DNA from: Prosthecobacter sp.
Lineage (GTDB): Bacteria; Verrucomicrobiota; Verrucomicrobiia; Verrucomicrobiales; Verrucomicrobiaceae
Length of the DNA: 64,000 nt
Reading direction: 5' to 3'
Assembly: GCA_019186985.1 (NCBI GenBank)
Contig: JABARQ010000001.1
Coordinates: 1 to 64,000, forward strand
Shown piece after piece: positions 52,896 to 62,630 of the stretch; within the stretch, counting starts at the first letter, position 1, and each line of letters opens with the position of its first letter. The position numbers were made by a program, and so were the translations under genes. The notes below the pieces were generated by a model. It ran no database searches. It saw only the letters and a list, made by a program, of their open reading frames with translations, and was not told the origin of the DNA.

Positions 52896-54623
52896 TCACG
52901 CGGCGCCGAGGTCCTTCATCAGGCGGTCGATGAAGATGCCGCGCTCGCCTTCGGTCATCGTGCCTTCGCGCCAGCAGAGGGTCAGCACGAGGCGGCCGTT
53001 CTTTTCGTTGGCGAAGACGCCGGTGCCGGGAGGGTCGGAGAAGCTGGGGACGTGGTAGGCATTGGTCACGGCGGCTCCGGCGAAGCGTGTGAGCTCGGGC
53101 GCGAAGACGCCGGTGTTGCTGTGGTAGAAGGAGCTGAACTTGCCCTTCATGTGGAAGTTGATGAAGAACATGTGCAGCCAGGGCGGCATCGGGCGCATCA
53201 TCCACATCAGGTCGCGGAAGGCGTCGCCGATCTTCTCCTTGATGAAGCGGGTGTGCTGCTGGTGCAGCGATCCCGCCGCAGCCTCCAGGGTGCCGAGCTC
53301 GGCGGCGAGGAGGTTGCAGAAGAACATGGTGAGGTGGTTCTGGAACAACGGGCCGCGCGTGCCCTTTTTCCGCACCTGGACGGGCACGCAGCACATGAGT
53401 GACTCGGGTCTGACACCGCGGTGCTCGAAGACGGCCTCGTGGGCGCGCATCGCGCAGGCGAGGTGGAAGGGCATGTTGATCAGCGGGCCGCAGATGCCGG
53501 CGCTGCGGCGGGCGGCCTCCTGCGTCTGCGCTTCCGTCAGCGTGAGGACCTGGAAATGCGCCCGCCCTTCGGAAAGCTTCTTGGACCCGAGGGCTTCAAA
53601 GGGCTTGGCCATCACCTGGTCAAAGAAGGCGGGCATGACCTTCGCGGTCTTCCAGCGCTCTCCCCAGCCGCGCGGATCCGCCAGGTCGGTCAGGTCAAAG
53701 GCGGGCACGGGCTCGCCGCCGCCGCCTAACAAACGGTTCAGTTCGACGAGGAAGAACTCGGCGCCGATGCCGTCCATGATGAGGTGGCTCCAGGAGAAGA
53801 CGAAGACGCAGGAGCCGTCGGCCTTTTCCACAAGGTCAAAGCGGACGTTCATCCAGCCTTCGTCCTGCTGCGGCAGGGAGGTGTTGATGATGTCGTCGAG
53901 CTGGGTCTGAAGGTCGGCAAACTCGCGGGCGCCATGGCCGGCGAGCCGGCCCGGGGAGCCGGTCTGGGACCAAAGGTGCAGTTCCAGGGGCTGCGGCCGG
54001 CCGGCCGGCTCCCAGCGCGGCAGGGAAAGCAGGGAGGGCTGGCGCAGCCGTGCGGTGAAGATCGGGAAGGGAAAGCGCTCAGGCAGCTCAAGCAGCAGCT
54101 TTTTCAGCGCGGCCACGTCCGGGATCCTGTCGAGCTCGATGAAGGAGTGGGCGATGTGGCCGCCCTGGCCGGCCTTGCGCAGCATCTCGTCAAAGGCGTG
54201 CGTGAAGAAGTCACAGTCACGCAGGGGCAGGGTGGCAAGGCGTTCGGCGGGTTTCGGCTCCGGGGGCGGTGATGCCTGCGCTTCAGCAGGCGGGGCGGGT
54301 TCCGAAACCACAGGCGTTGCGGCAGCGTCCGCCGGCTGCGGCCCGCCGGCTTCCTCGGGCAGCACTTCGTAACCCTGGGTCACCAAAAGTGCTCCAATGG
54401 CCCTGGCGTTCCTGAAGTTGGCCCGCGAGACGCTGCCGACGGGGATTGCGCAGCCGAAATGCTCCTCCAGGAGCAGGAGAAGCTGCATGATGGCCATGGA
54501 ATCCAGCCCGGCTTCAAACAGGTCCGAGGTGACGGTGAAACCCGGAGGTGTTTGCAGAACCTCATTGCGGACGAGGTCCAGGACACGGATTTCGAGCTGG
54601 GAGAGTGATTCTTGAGCAGGCAT
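52896..54623 (-). CDS. stand-alone acyl-carrier/condensation-domain protein
   Basis: 575 residues with two parts. Residues 5-85 are an acyl/peptidyl-carrier domain with a Ser42 attachment site in LFEAGLDSMAIMQLLLLLEEHFG. A Pro/Ala/Glu-rich linker covers about 88-130. Residues 131-575 form a condensation-type (chloramphenicol acetyltransferase fold) domain: SHLIMDGIGAEFF at 279-291 is the HHxxxDG motif with the first His replaced by Ser, retaining His280 and Asp284. Its C-terminal half contains FHLACAMRAHEAVF and VPVQVRKKGTRGP, and it also resembles wax-ester-synthase/PapA-type acyltransferases. There is no adenylation, ketosynthase or thioesterase domain and no biosynthetic cluster near it. 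It may transfer an acyl group held on its own carrier domain. Confidence 0.82.
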   Translation of the reverse strand: MPAQESLSQLEIRVLDLVRNEVLQTPPGFTVTSDLFEAGLDSMAIMQLLLLLEEHFGCAIPVGSVSRANFRNARAIGALLVTQGYEVLPEEAGGPQPADAAATPVVSEPAPPAEAQASPPPEPKPAERLATLPLRDCDFFTHAFDEMLRKAGQGGHIAHSFIELDRIPDVAALKKLLLELPERFPFPIFTARLRQPSLLSLPRWEPAGRPQPLELHLWSQTGSPGRLAGHGAREFADLQTQLDDIINTSLPQQDEGWMNVRFDLVEKADGSCVFVFSWSHLIMDGIGAEFFLVELNRLLGGGGEPVPAFDLTDLADPRGWGERWKTAKVMPAFFDQVMAKPFEALGSKKLSEGRAHFQVLTLTEAQTQEAARRSAGICGPLINMPFHLACAMRAHEAVFEHRGVRPESLMCCVPVQVRKKGTRGPLFQNHLTMFFCNLLAAELGTLEAAAGSLHQQHTRFIKEKIGDAFRDLMWMMRPMPPWLHMFFINFHMKGKFSSFYHSNTGVFAPELTRFAGAAVTNAYHVPSFSDPPGTGVFANEKNGRLVLTLCWREGTMTEGERGIFIDRLMKDLGAA

Positions 54624-54774
54624 CAGGGGGAACCCAAAGGGCGGGCGATAGTAGGGGAGGCGAAGGGGTGGTCAAGCAGCCTCGTCATCGTGACAAATGA
54701 AGGTGGAGCCTTGCCAATCATCAGGCCATCAGGTGGTGTAGGCAGGCGCGTCAGCTTCTGTTAAATACTTAGTT

Positions 54775-54804
54775 ATTATCAAATTTATAATAAAACTTGA
54801 TAAT
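54775..54804 (+). promoter_or_regulatory. promoter with perfect -10 flanked by an inverted repeat
   Basis: TATAAT at 54786-54791 sits between ATTATCAA (54775-54782) and TTGATAAT (54797-54804), an 8-bp perfect inverted repeat with a 14-base spacer. The arms are centred about two helical turns apart, suggesting a repressor site over the -10. The -35 is weak. Confidence 0.5.
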
Positions 54805-54823
54805 TTGCTTCACTTGAAGCAAA
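54804..54823 (+). promoter_or_regulatory. perfect hairpin in the leader before the start codon
   Basis: TTTGCTTC (54804-54811) and GAAGCAAA (54816-54823) form an 8-bp perfect stem with a 4-base loop, ending six bases before ATG 54830. It covers the position of the ribosome binding site; no Shine-Dalgarno is otherwise apparent. Confidence 0.5.
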
Positions 54824-54829
54824 ATCACT

Positions 54830-56209
54830 ATGTTCATGCTGCTGTTCCATCCCATCCGGCTGCGCTTGATGATCGCCCTCCTGCTTCTGCTGGTGGCCGG
54901 ACAGGCGCGTTCCAAGGCCGACATCATCGGCGACTGGAACGACTATGCCCTGACTGCAGCGCGTGATGGAGGGCTGCTCACGCCGGAGATGTCCCGGAAC
55001 ATGGCGATGCTTCACACCTCCATCTACAACGCGGTGGAGGGCATTGCCGGAAACTACAGCTTGTATGTCCACGGCACCTATTCCGGGCCTTCGGGAAGCG
55101 CCGTGACGGGGGCTTCGATGCAGGCTGCCGCCTCTGCCGCCGCCTACACCATCATGGCGGACCTCTACCCCGGCATGATGGGGGATTTTGCCAGCCTTTA
55201 TTCAACCCAGCTGAGCTCCCTGGCTGATGATCAGGCCAAGGTGGACGGCATCAACTTCGGCACGCTTGTGGCCAATGACATCCTGAACTGGCGGACGAAT
55301 GACGGCGCCTCGGACGCCTCCAATCCGCTGCTTTACACGCCGCTGGGCTCGGCCGGTCACTGGGCGCCGACCAGCCCGACCTATGATGATGCCGCGCTGC
55401 CCGGCTGGGGCAGTGTCAGCACCTTCGCCGCCGCGAACGTCAACACCTACACAGGCAGCCTGGGCATGAGCAATTCCAGCTACCTGACCACTCCCGGCTA
55501 CACGGCGGACTACAACCTGGTGAAGGACATCGGCTCCGCCACCAGCGGCACCCGGACCACGGAGCAGACGGATGCCGCCCTCTTCTGGGAGGGCGCACCC
55601 GGCACCATCACCAACATCGGCCTCTGGAACAAGGTCGCCGCCGGCATCATCAGCGGCCAGTCGCTCGGCCTGGCGGACAGCGCCCGGCTTTATGCCGCCC
55701 TGAACGTGGCGCTGGCGGATGCTGCCATCGTCGCCTGGGACACCAAGTTTGAGGTGGATCTCTGGAGCCCCGAGACGGCGATCCAGAACGGGGCTTCCGA
55801 CGGCAATGGCGACACGGCCGGCAACCCCGCCTGGCAGCCGCTGCTGACCTCGCCCAACTCCCCGTCCTACTTCGCCGAGCAGGCCGTCTTTGGCGGCGCA
55901 GCCTCGGGCATCCTCGAGTCCTTTGCGGGAACCAATTATGCGTTCACGCTCGACAGCGACACGGACGGCGACGGCTTCACGGACATCACGCTGAACTTCA
56001 GCTCCCTGGCCGCCGCGCGTGACATGGCGATGCTGAGCGGCCTCTGGGGAGGCTCCTATTTTGAAAAGTCGGTGATCGACAGCGCCGCGACGGGCGATCA
56101 GCTCGCCGCGCTGGTTCTGGGCAGCCAGTTCGCCGCCGTGCCTGAGCCCGGAAGCATGGTGCTGCTGGCCATGGCCGGCCTGGCCGGACTGCTCCGACGT
56201 CGCCGGTGA
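54830..56209 (+). CDS. PEP-CTERM protein, probably inactive vanadium haloperoxidase homologue
   Basis: 459 residues with a signal (about 10-29) and a C-terminal sorting tag ([23 protein letters not shown]). The body has the fold and motif spacing of bacterial vanadium-dependent haloperoxidases/PAP2-like enzymes ([13 protein letters not shown] near 60-72; [17 protein letters not shown] at 303-319). All active-site residues are changed: the Arg of the first motif (K...RP) is Ser313; the PSGH motif reads FAEQ at 348-351, losing the catalytic His; and the third motif SRxYGGIH reads SGLWGGSY (403-410), losing Arg and His. Only Lys306 remains. It may have become a structural or binding protein displayed at the surface. 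It precedes a DUF1501 gene by 47 bases. Confidence 0.8.
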
Positions 56210-56256
56210 CGGATAGCCGGGGCCGGGAAGGCGCGTTAAAGCATCCTTCTTCTCCC

Positions 56257-57723
56257 ATGTCACCCGCCCTTGAACATCACCTCCAGCAGACACGCCGTCA
56301 GTTCTTCGGTCAGTTTGGGCTGCGTGCCGGCAGCATTGCCCTGGCATCCTTGATGGGCAGGGAGATGGCCGCAGGGGCTCCGGCGCCGGGCATGGTGCAT
56401 CCGCCGCTCCCCGGCATGCCGCATTTCGCCCCCAGGGCAAAGCGCCTCATCTACCTGCACATGAACGGCGCGCCTTCGCAGCTCGACCTGTGGGACCACA
56501 AGCCGCAGCTCCGGGCCTATTTTGACAAGGACCTGCCCGAGAGCGTGCGCAACGGGCAGCGCATCACCACGATGACGAGCGGCCAGGCCCGCCTGCCGGT
56601 GGCGCCGTCGATGTTCAAGTTCCAGCAGCACGGAAGGAGCGGCATGTGGGCCAGCGAGCTGCTCAGGCATACTTCGAAGATCGTCGATGACATCGCGCTC
56701 ATCAAAACGGTGCACACCAGCGCCATCAACCATGATCCGGCCTGCACCTTTGTGATGACGGGCAGTGAAGTGCCGGGCAAGGCCAGCATCGGCTCCTGGC
56801 TCGCCTACGGCCTGGGCAGCGAAAGCAACGACCTGCCGGGCTTCGTGGTCTTCACCCCCAGCTTTCCGGCGGCCAGCCAGGCCCAGGCCCTGTTCACCCG
56901 CATGTGGAGCAGCGGCTTCCTGCCCAGCCGTTTCACCGGCGTCGCCCTGCGCGGCCAGGGGGATCCGGTGCTTTATGTGAAGAATCCTCCCGGCGTGGAC
57001 CCGGGGGACCGCCGCACGATGCTGAACGCGCTGGGCCGGCTCAACGAGATCAACCATGCACGAATCGGCGATCCGGAAATCCAGACCCGCATCGCCAATT
57101 ATGAGATGGCCTTCCGCATGCAGGCCAGCGTGCCGGAGCTGACGGACCTCGCCAGGGAAAGCAAGGCCACCCTGGAGATGTACGGCCCGGACGTGCATCG
57201 CGCCGGAAGCTTCACCCACAGCGCCATCCTCGCTCGGCGGCTCATCGAGCGCGGCACCCGTGTCGTGCAGATCCTTCACCGCGGCTGGGACCAGCATAAC
57301 AACCTGCCGCGGCTGCTGCGCGGGCAGATCGAGGACACCGACCAGGCGACTGCGGCGCTGATCATGGACCTGAAGCAGCGCGGGCTGCTCAACGACACCC
57401 TGGTCGTCTGGGGCGGCGAATTCGGCCGCACCGTTTACTCCCAGGGAACCCTCACCCAGGACAACTACGGGCGCGACCATCATCCGCGCAACTTCTGCAT
57501 GTGGATGGCCGGCGCAGGCGTGCGTGGCGGAACGGTTTACGGCGAGACGGACGACTTCAGCTACAACATCGTGAAGGATCCGGTGCACATCAACGACCTG
57601 AACGCCACGATCCTCCACCTCATGGGCATCGACCACACGCGCTTCAGCTTCAAGTTCCAGGGCCTCGACCAGCGCCTGACGGGCGTGGAGGAGCATCATC
57701 CGGTCAAGGCGGTGCTGGCCTGA
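56257..57723 (+). CDS. DUF1501 family protein (second copy)
   Basis: 488 residues from ATG 56257. Near the start is [21 protein letters not shown], a twin-arginine signal. The family landmarks are [120 protein letters not shown] and [23 protein letters not shown]. It is clearly distinct from the protein at 14154-15587, of the form usually paired with PSD1/DUF1553 cytochromes; none is adjacent here. Confidence 0.9.
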
Positions 57724-60602: not shown

Positions 60603-61178
60603 TCAAACGACGCGCGGCAGCACCTCGACAACGTCGGCGAGCACACGGCCGGAGCCGTGGCGCAGCTCGTTGCAGCGGCCGAACAAAATCTGCCCGCTGG
60701 TGGCGCCGAGCAGCTCGGCCAGCCTCTGGTCCACCGCGATGCGGAAATAGCCGCGCGGATGGCTGCTGTGCGGCACCTGGTGGCGTTCCAGGATCGCCCC
60801 GAAGGGCACGCGGCCTTCCAGCACCAGCTGCTGGGCCTCCTCGGGCAGGAGGTCGAGGTGAATGCCGATGGCCCCGAACTCGATGGGCTTGCCGTCGCTG
60901 CGCCGGTGCAGCACCGAGGCACGAACGAGGTAGTTGCCGATGCGGGCGCGGGCCGCCACATCCAGGTCGATGTCGCAGCCGTGATAATCGCGCAGATGCG
61001 GCGTCATGTCGCGGTCATGCACGAGCAGGAAGCGCTCCTGCTCGGCCAGTCCGTCGGGTTCGACAAAAGTCACGCGCGGGCGTGTGCTGCCGATGCCGTA
61101 AAAGAAGATCAGCGGAGCCAGGATGTCTTCGTCTTGTCGGGGGGCCTCGTTCATCACCTCGGGAAAGCTGGAATTCAT
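60603..61178 (-). CDS. chorismate-lyase-like (UbiC/UTRA-fold) protein
   Basis: 191 residues. The region 75-190 resembles the UbiC fold: NYLVRASVLHRRSDGKPIEFGAIGIHLDLLPEEA, then VPFGAILERHQVP and the C-terminal ILFGRCNELRHGSGRVLADVVEVLP, which fits the Arg...Glu ending of chorismate lyases. Similarity is weak and the N-terminal ~60 residues are extra, so pyruvate elimination from chorismate is only one possibility; a ligand-binding role is another. It lies 28 bases downstream of the radical SAM gene on the same strand, suggesting a shared pathway. Confidence 0.6.
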   Translation of the reverse strand: MNSSFPEVMNEAPRQDEDILAPLIFFYGIGSTRPRVTFVEPDGLAEQERFLLVHDRDMTPHLRDYHGCDIDLDVAARARIGNYLVRASVLHRRSDGKPIEFGAIGIHLDLLPEEAQQLVLEGRVPFGAILERHQVPHSSHPRGYFRIAVDQRLAELLGATSGQILFGRCNELRHGSGRVLADVVEVLPRVV

Positions 61179-61206
61179 CGTTCAGTCATTCGCAATCCGT
61201 CATTCC

Positions 61207-62553
61207 TCAGGTGTAACGGGCGTACTGGCGGTGCTGGGGCAGGAAGAAGTCATGCAGCAGCCTGTCCACCTGCAGCAGGCCGTCGCGGCTGAAGGTGACA
61301 TCATCGTTGGTCAGGTTGACCCATCCCTCCGCGGCCAGTCGCTCAAGCTGGGTGGCGAAGAACTGGCGTGGATGGATGCCGAACTTTTCCTGGTAGTAGG
61401 CGAACTCGCTGCGGCCGAGCTTCATCTTGAGGATGAACTCGCGCACGAAGCGCTCCTCGTGGCTGGTTTCATAGGCGCGGAAGATGGGCAGCCTGCCGGC
61501 GTCCACGGCCTGCATGTAGGGGCCGACATCAGCCTGGTTCTGATAATGCACGCCGCCCAGGTGGCCGAAGGAGGCCACGCCGCAGCTCAGCAGGTCGGAG
61601 CCCTCCCAGAGCGCGTCGCGGTACACGAACTTGATGCGCTGCGGATCCTTCACGACGGTGTAGGCGCTGGTGACGGTGTAGCCTGCCTTGACGAATTCAT
61701 CGAAGGCATAACTGACCCAGCGGCGCTTGGTGGGCCAGTCGGCGACGGGGGCGGTGACCTTGCCCTCGGCCTTCATCTGCTGATAGATGGTGGTGTTGTA
61801 GGGAACCTCCATCTGGTAGATGGTCACGGCGTCGGGGCCGAGGTCGATGGCCTTCTGCACGCAGACCTTCCAGTTTTCCTCGGTCTCGTTCATCATGCCG
61901 GCGATGAGGTCGATGTTGATGTGCTCGAAGCCGAGCGTCCGGGCGAAGCGGTAGGCCTTGTCGATCTCGCCGCTGCGATGGGCGCGGCCGTTGGACTCGA
62001 GGATGTGGTCGTCGAAGTTTTCCACGCCCAGGCTGAGGCGGGTGACGCCGACCTCGCGGATGCCGGAGAGCTTGACCTCGTTGAGCGTTCCGGGTTCGGC
62101 CTCGAAGGCCACCTCGGCGGCGCCCTCCCAGCTCACCAGGTCCTTCATGCGGCTGGTCAGGTCGCGCAGCTGGGGCACGCTGAGGTAGCTGGGCGTGCCG
62201 CCGCCGAAATAGACGAAGTGAGCCTTGCGGCCCTGGATGTAGGGCGTGGAGGCATAGCGCTCCATCTCACGCATTCCTGCGTCGATGTAGGCCTTGATCT
62301 CCTGGGCGTTCTTGTCGGTGTAGACCTTGAAGTAGCAGAAGTGGCAGCGTTTGCGGCAGAAGGGGATGTGGAAGTAGATGCCCAGCGGCACGTCCTGCGG
62401 GGCCGGACGCTGCATCACGGCCTCCACGGCGGGCACCTGCTCCGGCTTCCAGAAGGAGAAGGGGGGATAGTTGGAGACGAAGTAGTTTCCAGCCTCGGTC
62501 TTTTCAGGCTGCTTGTTCGTCGCTGGCTGGGGGGCTTCCAGGGTGTTGGACAT
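61207..62553 (-). CDS. HemN/coproporphyrinogen-oxidase-like radical SAM protein
   Basis: 448 residues from ATG 62553. The radical SAM cluster site is IPFCRKRCHFCYFKVY (Cys66, Cys70, Cys73), followed by the family FVYFGGGTPSYLS and EAEPGTL, then RLSLGVENFDDHILESNGR and INIDLIAGMMNETEENW. The C-terminal ~150 residues include the HemN-type domain (FGHLGGVHYQNQADVGPYM, ERFVREFILKMKLG). Relatives are coproporphyrinogen dehydrogenases, HemW and haem-handling HutW proteins; sequence reading alone does not separate these. Its partner gene is the UbiC-like one, which points away from simple haem synthesis and towards a small-molecule or cofactor step. Confidence 0.85.
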   Translation of the reverse strand: MSNTLEAPQPATNKQPEKTEAGNYFVSNYPPFSFWKPEQVPAVEAVMQRPAPQDVPLGIYFHIPFCRKRCHFCYFKVYTDKNAQEIKAYIDAGMREMERYASTPYIQGRKAHFVYFGGGTPSYLSVPQLRDLTSRMKDLVSWEGAAEVAFEAEPGTLNEVKLSGIREVGVTRLSLGVENFDDHILESNGRAHRSGEIDKAYRFARTLGFEHINIDLIAGMMNETEENWKVCVQKAIDLGPDAVTIYQMEVPYNTTIYQQMKAEGKVTAPVADWPTKRRWVSYAFDEFVKAGYTVTSAYTVVKDPQRIKFVYRDALWEGSDLLSCGVASFGHLGGVHYQNQADVGPYMQAVDAGRLPIFRAYETSHEERFVREFILKMKLGRSEFAYYQEKFGIHPRQFFATQLERLAAEGWVNLTNDDVTFSRDGLLQVDRLLHDFFLPQHRQYARYT

Positions 62554-62630
62554 GGCGAAAATGGGAACGGTTGCCACAGCCTAGTTCTGCCGCGAAAAAG
62601 CGCCAGCGGGGAAAGCTCCGGGACGATCCC

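Follow-up and report, generated by a model that had tools for sequence, protein, structure and literature searches.

A vanadium haloperoxidase homologue from a Prosthecobacter genome belongs to a PEP-CTERM clade that has lost the vanadate site and gained an acidic loop

The gene at positions 54830-56209 (plus strand) of the window, i.e. the whole 64,000-nucleotide stretch of Prosthecobacter sp. DNA that was analysed, encodes a homologue of the vanadium haloperoxidases (VHPOs) in which six of the seven vanadate-site positions have been replaced. The vanadate site has been lost throughout an entire clade rather than in this gene alone, and members of this clade have gained an acidic, EF-hand-like loop. 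The combination of a lost metal site, a loop that likely binds calcium and a tag for display suggests an enzyme that has turned into a structural or binding protein. We consider it probable that the gene product is a pseudoenzyme of VHPO descent, exapted as a protein of the surface or matrix that is sorted by an exosortase and stabilised by calcium.

The preliminary description of this DNA had called the gene intact, and the ATG-to-TGA frame was indeed open from end to end, encoding 459 residues (the coordinates include the stop codon). Read from the sequence, residues 1-30 (54830-54919, plus strand) form a probable signal peptide, in which a hydrophobic N-terminus, helical from residue 8 to residue 24 in the AlphaFold2 (AF2) model, precedes an RSKA end directly before D31. 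Residues 436-459 (56135-56206, plus strand) form a PEP-CTERM sorting tag consisting of VPEPG, a hydrophobic helix and RRRR. This tag had been described as complete, which agrees with its matches above cut-off to PF07589 in Pfam (E = 4.3e-5, and 8.8e-6 in the genome search) and to TIGR02595 in NCBIfam. Besides the tag, Pfam gave a weak DUF6851 stretch below cut-off, and NCBIfam otherwise returned only PEP-CTERM-type models. The VPEP residues were invariant in the 34 clade rows that were aligned, 25 of which matched PF07589 at E <= 1. Two exosortase genes (PF09721) scored above cut-off in the same genome. At least one exosortase was found in all 68 genomes of the window's family (Verrucomicrobiaceae), and the presence of the enzyme is therefore non-discriminating.

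Comparison with solved structures using phmmer matched residues 140-430 of the protein to the bacterial VHPO 4cit with E = 2.6e-18, and gave a match of about 1e-7 to the Curvularia chloroperoxidase, bearing out a homology that had at first been proposed from motif spacing. The alignment to 4cit ran through the motif stretches, including WDEKYRSNLIRPET and PSYFAEQ, with SRMYGGIHY of 4cit facing SGLWGGSYF of the window protein. The KxxxxxWRP motif corresponds to K306 followed by W312-S313-P314, the PSGH-type motif to F348-A349-E350-Q351 and the SRxYGGIH motif to S403-G404-L405-W406-G407-G408-S409-Y410; the substitutions reported beforehand (Ser313 for the motif Arg, FAEQ for PSGH and SGLWGGSY for SRxYGGIH) were exact in the alignments. 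In Curvularia numbering, Arg360 is replaced by S313 (55766-55768, plus strand), Ser402-Gly403-His404 by A349-E350-Q351 (55874-55882, plus strand), Arg490 by G404 (56039-56041, plus strand) and His496, the axial vanadate ligand, by Y410 (56057-56059, plus strand). Gly403 is counted here with the others as an active-site position of the Curvularia enzyme. K306 (55745-55747, plus strand), the equivalent of Lys353, is the sole vanadate-site residue left, as had been noted, the equivalents of the other six being S, A, E, Q, G and Y. The roles of these residues, Gly403 apart, are those given in the accessible text of PMC10278073.

The window protein is predicted to have a full-length VHPO fold. Its AF2 model, computed from an alignment with 58 relatives, had a mean pLDDT of 93.9 and a pTM of 0.90, and its top Foldseek matches were 4usz (E = 9.6e-18) and 4cit (E = 3.4e-17). 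Structural alignment with VIA-align placed the iodoperoxidase entries 4cit and 4usz over the whole length of the model (Z 48.0 and 47.9, rmsd 2.5, 392 and 395 residues respectively, 22% identity). Lower scores went to the chloroperoxidases, XhnO11 and NapH3 (Z 32.6-35.0), and lower ones still to acid phosphatases and the bromoperoxidases of algae (about 12-15). For L080, which belongs to the clade's other large subclade, the model had a pLDDT of 89.5 and gave Z 47 to the same VHPO entries. As the input alignments contained intact VHPOs, the AF2 fold is not independent of the homology, and the models of both proteins serve as tests of foldability and not as fresh evidence of homology. Structure prediction followed by a structural search had been proposed as a check on the fold, and the best solved matches that it returned were VHPOs. 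Chance resemblance to VHPOs was ruled out by the phmmer match together with the structural matches. Despite the shared fold, 4cit retains K, R, SGH and SRMYGGIH, whereas the window protein retains only the Lys and has in addition a DxDGDGxxD loop and a PEP-CTERM tail. The vanadium chloroperoxidase of Curvularia inaequalis (1vnc and mutants) likewise has the same fold as the model (Z about 34, 392 residues) but is catalytically competent; to our knowledge it is also longer and has no PEP-CTERM tag.

The PAP2 profile (PF01569) in Pfam had no match at E <= 1 to the window protein or to any of 34 clade members, and matched both intact sister paralogues tested (L002, 1.9e-13; L036, 8.4e-13). Since all 34 members escape PAP2 in Pfam, the label PEP-CTERM protein is probably all that the clade receives in annotation. 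NCBIfam gave a haloperoxidase name to none of the three degenerate and three intact members tested, and so cannot separate the two groups.

A match to the window protein was present in 49 of 96 genomes (its own and those of relatives). Five rows that were broken, partial or too distant (L031, L064, L034, L066 and L053) had been left out beforehand, and a set of 141 rows was reduced to 106 by dropping 23 rows of at least 98.5% identity (mostly the same genome represented twice) and 12 that were long or fragmentary. Of these 106 rows, 35 lacked both His residues (i.e. were degenerate), 68 had His404, Arg490 and His496, and three lacked His404 only. Within the 68 rows classed as intact, 59 had all seven residues and nine differed at the Ser or Gly of PSGH. 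The rows with Arg490 and His496 kept and His404 missing (L125, L128 and L129) came from Steroidobacter, Luteitalea and Asanoa records.

Before trees were built, the columns that cover the motifs, the loop, the signal and the tag were removed. The 35 degenerate rows formed one clade in the tree of 106 rows (SH-aLRT 97) and also in a 74-row tree (support 97/91), in which it was recovered in 96% of 200 bootstrap trees. All but one of the degenerate rows came from Verrucomicrobiaceae, spanning six genus codes, and the remaining row (L090) was assigned only to Verrucomicrobiota; carriers of the gene include Brevifollis gellanilyticus and Prosthecobacter MAGs. The sister of the clade consists of intact PEP-CTERM VHPOs from the window's family and from another family of the order. 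One of these (L002, C13:72530-73960) lies in the same genome as the window gene and has all of the catalytic residues; it is apparently a surface-sorted halogenating enzyme in a verrucomicrobium. The intact PEP-CTERM VHPOs (L002 and 15 others) resemble the window protein in having the same tag and about 32-36% identity to it, but differ in having the K, R, S, G, H, R, H set and no EF-hand-like loop. In the largest subclade most loci share their own neighbourhood, with clusters in up to 17 of 23 loci, antisense ORFs included; this supports vertical descent and gives no clue to function. The degenerate genes in two MAGs labelled Akkermansia muciniphila (L071 and L093) were at least 98.5% identical to genes in the window's genus, which suggests that these MAGs are mislabelled.

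Among 15 loci from the order, taken from the stronger matches, 13 keep His404, Arg490 and His496; the other two, L210 and a locus from the window's family (L216), are degenerate. All 14 loci from outside the order, found in a 387-genome sample of the phylum at E 1e-60 or better, keep K, R, His404, Arg490 and His496. L210, a PEP-CTERM protein from another family of the order (genome G106), has A, R, S, A, N, G and Q at the seven positions. The best tree placed L210 outside the degenerate clade, and a single clade including it was not rejected by the AU test (p 0.188). L210 is possibly an independent loss, one loss and two losses both being compatible with these results.

Within the degenerate clade Gly403, His404, Arg490 and His496 were kept in none of the 35 rows, Lys353 was kept in 11, Arg360 in 28 and Ser402 in 24. 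The first four losses are thus fixed across the PEP-CTERM-tagged homologues, a point that an alignment of the group had been proposed to check. The preliminary description had stated that every catalytic motif was destroyed; this is true of the window gene and its nearest kin, to which the wording is best limited, because outside the window's subgroup Arg360 and Ser402 are mostly kept. Their retention also indicates that the old site is not wholly free to drift. In total, 18 columns conserved in intact VHPOs were lost in the clade, eight of them within the three motif stretches (303, 306, 350-352, 404, 409 and 410) and ten outside the motifs (51, 198, 207, 209, 249, 262, 263, 265, 288 and 341). 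W36, R155, D158, R242, W253, D297, W312, P314 and W335 were invariant in all 34 aligned clade rows.

The residues that have taken the place of the catalytic ones vary by subclade: position 351 is G, Q, S, T, V or N, position 410 is Q, S, D, Y or E, and position 306 is K, S, A, I, Q, D or M. The loss of the original residues together with this variation argues against a new conserved active site within the old one. Intact Lys, Arg or His residues at other positions had also been considered beforehand. No His, Cys or Lys column was common to at least 32 of the 35 degenerate rows (the best His column reached 14), so that no replacement active site is apparent, and relocation of the catalytic residues was ruled out on the same count. 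It is hardly credible that the protein is an ordinary active VHPO with its catalytic residues misaligned or elsewhere, for which only the VHPO fold speaks, since the motifs align to 4cit as expected, Gly, His, Arg and His of that enzyme face E, Q, G and Y, and the clade has no conserved His, whereas the axial His binds vanadate in all known VHPOs according to the accessible text of PMC11871015.

The main rival to the pseudoenzyme explanation is continued enzymatic activity, in which a remodelled VHPO site would catalyse a reaction that does not depend on vanadate, in the manner of the non-halogenating NapH3- or MarH2-like homologues. NapH3 (8cxl) is a structural relative of the window model (Z 34.0) whose PDB title gives a rearrangement activity, i.e. 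a VHPO fold with changed chemistry and hence a precedent for repurposing, and a preprint (PMC12871659), in its accessible parts, treats NapH3- and MarH2-like proteins as close non-halogenase homologues of VHPOs. The frequent retention of Arg360 and Ser402 points in the same direction, and the fold and the purifying selection described below would also fit a new activity that is sited elsewhere in the protein or that does without His. However, NapH3 is still catalytic, acting in napyradiomycin biosynthesis (according to the references of PMC12871659), whereas the window clade has no conserved site chemistry: positions 351, 410 and 306 differ between subclades, no column of His, Cys or Lys spans the clade, and acidic columns found in at least 32 of the 35 degenerate rows and in few or none of 16 sister rows were limited to D227 and those of the loop. 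We therefore regard a surviving enzymatic activity as unlikely and favour the pseudoenzyme explanation.

The acidic loop, D377-T-D-G-D-G-F-T-D385 (55958-55984, plus strand), is specific to the degenerate clade. The AF2 model puts it in a beta hairpin, formed by strands 372-376 and 386-390, that separates the two C-terminal motifs whose catalytic residues are gone. The pattern D-x-[DN]-G-[DN]-G-x-x-[DN] was found in 32 of the 35 degenerate rows, in none of 19 intact sister rows, which comprise the 16 from the family and three further ones from the order, and in none of 19 other intact rows; L210 also lacks it. Asp was present at columns 377, 381 and 385 in 34, 32 and 33 of the 35 degenerate rows, and in none of the 16 sister rows. 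The three members that miss the pattern have a shortened loop (L008), a partial one (L051) or two longer D-x-N-x-D-G loops (L038). No curated EF-hand or dockerin profile matched the window protein, and of 34 members only L038, with one of its two loops, touched Dockerin_1, below cut-off (E = 0.066). As a DxDGDGxxD loop was gained in 32 of 35 degenerate rows, it is likely, judging from its sequence, that the loop binds calcium, although short DxDGDG motifs can instead be structural turns.

The preliminary description had proposed a dN/dS comparison of close relatives, and this pointed to purifying selection. By the Nei-Gojobori method, dN/dS ranged from 0.079 to 0.259 in the 22 closest degenerate pairs (of 280 with dS under 1.5) and from 0.055 to 0.298 in the 22 closest intact sister pairs (of 47 with dS under 1.5), the pairs not being independent and L090 having been left out. 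The window gene and its nearest relative differed with dS 1.09 and dN 0.27, and the neighbouring DUF1501 gene from the same two genomes with dS 0.99 and dN 0.058; at approximately equal dS, the window gene is therefore evolving faster than its neighbour. Such a combination of constraint and rapid change as this gene displays is common in surface proteins. Among 59 genomes of the genus and family, 33 had an unbroken degenerate gene, three had a broken or partial copy (G010, G024 and G025) and 23 had none, indicating that the gene is dispensable in places, although some of the absences may be false because several of the assemblies are incomplete. The unbroken copies span six genus codes and are 36-66% identical to the window copy. 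An assembly or frameshift artefact was ruled out, given the 33 genomes with unbroken genes against three with broken or partial ones.

It is very improbable that the gene is in slow, functionless decay, caught in the course of pseudogenisation before frameshifts have appeared. Such decay would be consistent with the broken or partial copies in three of the 36 genus or family genomes that have the gene, and with the high dN relative to the neighbouring gene, but 33 of the 36 copies are unbroken over a deep divergence, dN/dS is low in the closest pairs, the tag and an upstream element are conserved, and a loop has been gained. The gene instead fits the description of a pseudoenzyme: its catalytic residues are lost, its frame is unbroken, it is under purifying selection and the losses are fixed across the clade.

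The upstream element is a 17-bp near-palindrome, TTATCAAATTTATAATA, which lies 37 bp before the start codon (54776-54792, plus strand) and has a weight-matrix score of 14.4. Its consensus is TTATGGTAATTATARTA, found 7-47 bp before the start codons of degenerate genes. The weight matrix scored 9.7-19.0 in each of 34 degenerate upstream regions, which were its training set; as it was trained on these regions, the independent figure is that of a loose regular expression, which matched 20 of the 34 regions compared with 0.07 in shuffles. Among 15 intact sister upstream regions, which were not used for training, eight scored above 9 (95th percentile of shuffles, 3.6) and two matched the regular expression. 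These sets omit one of the 35 degenerate genes, L033, whose start codon is uncertain, and one sister gene, L045, which lies at a contig end. In the 64-kb window a score of at least 9 occurred, on both strands, only at 54776-54792, compared with a shuffled mean of 0.0. The window's own genome has 13 other sites within three mismatches of the consensus compared with none for the reversed pattern, and three of these 13 sit 8-25 bp before PEP-CTERM genes, two of them in the opposite orientation. In this genome TTATGGTAATTATARTA-like sites also precede several large ORFs whose N-termini look, by eye, like those of exported proteins; L148, L155 and L158 are among the loci with this candidate regulon element. 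A promoter of the gene's own had been claimed previously, and sigma-70-like consensus matches are enriched in 54600-56300 (four on the two strands compared with 0.3 expected), but the conserved 17-bp element is better evidence for it. In the accessible text of Haft and co-workers (PMC1569441), many PEP-CTERM genes have upstream regions that fall outside the proteobacterial motif described there.

The presence of an intact sister paralogue (L002) in the same genome, together with element scores above 9 upstream of eight of the 15 intact sister genes, would be consistent with the degenerate protein being a regulatory partner of the intact PEP-CTERM haloperoxidase, acting in a heterodimer or as a decoy, a relationship that exists between certain pseudoenzymes and their active paralogues. 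However, an intact sister was detected in 16 of the 59 genomes, only 11 genomes had both genes and in 22 the degenerate gene occurred alone (Fisher p = 0.26), in a set that includes several incomplete assemblies. An obligate partner role is unlikely because 22 of the 33 genomes with an unbroken degenerate gene have no detected intact sister, and we consider a partner role of any kind quite improbable.

Downstream of the window gene, 47 bp after its stop codon, lies a gene for a DUF1501 protein (56257-57723, plus strand, likely start ATG 56257; PF07394, E = 4.3e-144), with which it is possibly co-transcribed. Among 50 loci with flanks of up to 5 kb, only that of the nearest relative (L068/L003, one genome) likewise had a DUF1501 gene next to it (92% identical), and a conserved operon with DUF1501 was ruled out on this basis. 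Elsewhere in the window, the minus strand encodes a 575-residue protein (52896-54623) in which a phosphopantetheine carrier domain (PF00550, E = 7e-9) occupies the N-terminal part; its remainder has a weak wax ester synthase-type match below the NCBIfam cut-off and contains an SHLIMDG stretch. A radical SAM protein (PF04055) adjoins a 191-residue protein at 60603-62577 on the minus strand, and the latter had no Pfam match at E 0.01.

The explanation that we favour can be set out as a sequence of events. The window gene would be a pseudoenzyme paralogue of a PEP-CTERM VHPO, produced by an old duplication in the line of Verrucomicrobiaceae, after which the vanadate site would have been dismantled while a sturdy helical scaffold and the sorting tag were retained; no member now has the axial or the acid-base His, Arg490 or the glycine of PSGH. 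The acidic DxDGDGxxD loop would have become fixed in the hairpin that separates the two lost C-terminal motifs. The protein would be exported and its PEP-CTERM tail processed by an exosortase, leaving a globule with the VHPO fold on the cell or in its exopolysaccharide matrix, where it would most likely serve as a structural or ligand-binding component that is stabilised by calcium and carries out no peroxidase chemistry. This reading agrees with the non-catalytic role at the surface proposed in the preliminary description. The homology, the clade-wide losses beside a conserved scaffold, the purifying selection, the gained loop motif and the presence of exosortases are shown and the fold is predicted, whereas inactivity, calcium binding, location and role are inferred. 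A more specific version is that calcium replaced vanadate as the cofactor and that an adhesive or structural function replaced catalysis, perhaps with a regulon element shared with surface proteins; this version is tentative, and we would not yet back it as it stands.

VHPO homologues that do not halogenate, such as NapH3 and MarH2, are already known, as are PEP-CTERM proteins. Among the matches listed in searches of the open-licence literature, no report joined haloperoxidase with PEP-CTERM, or with pseudoenzymes or the loss of catalytic residues, and within the reach of these searches no description was found there of a clade of VHPO pseudoenzymes that has gained an acidic loop. According to the accessible text of Haft and co-workers (PMC1569441), PEP-CTERM proteins have little homology to known proteins, and the results presented here give them one clear evolutionary source, the VHPOs. 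The system in which an intact and a dead paralogue carry the same tag, paired in 11 of 59 genomes, offers a probe of the function of surface VHPOs and of how an enzyme becomes a matrix protein.
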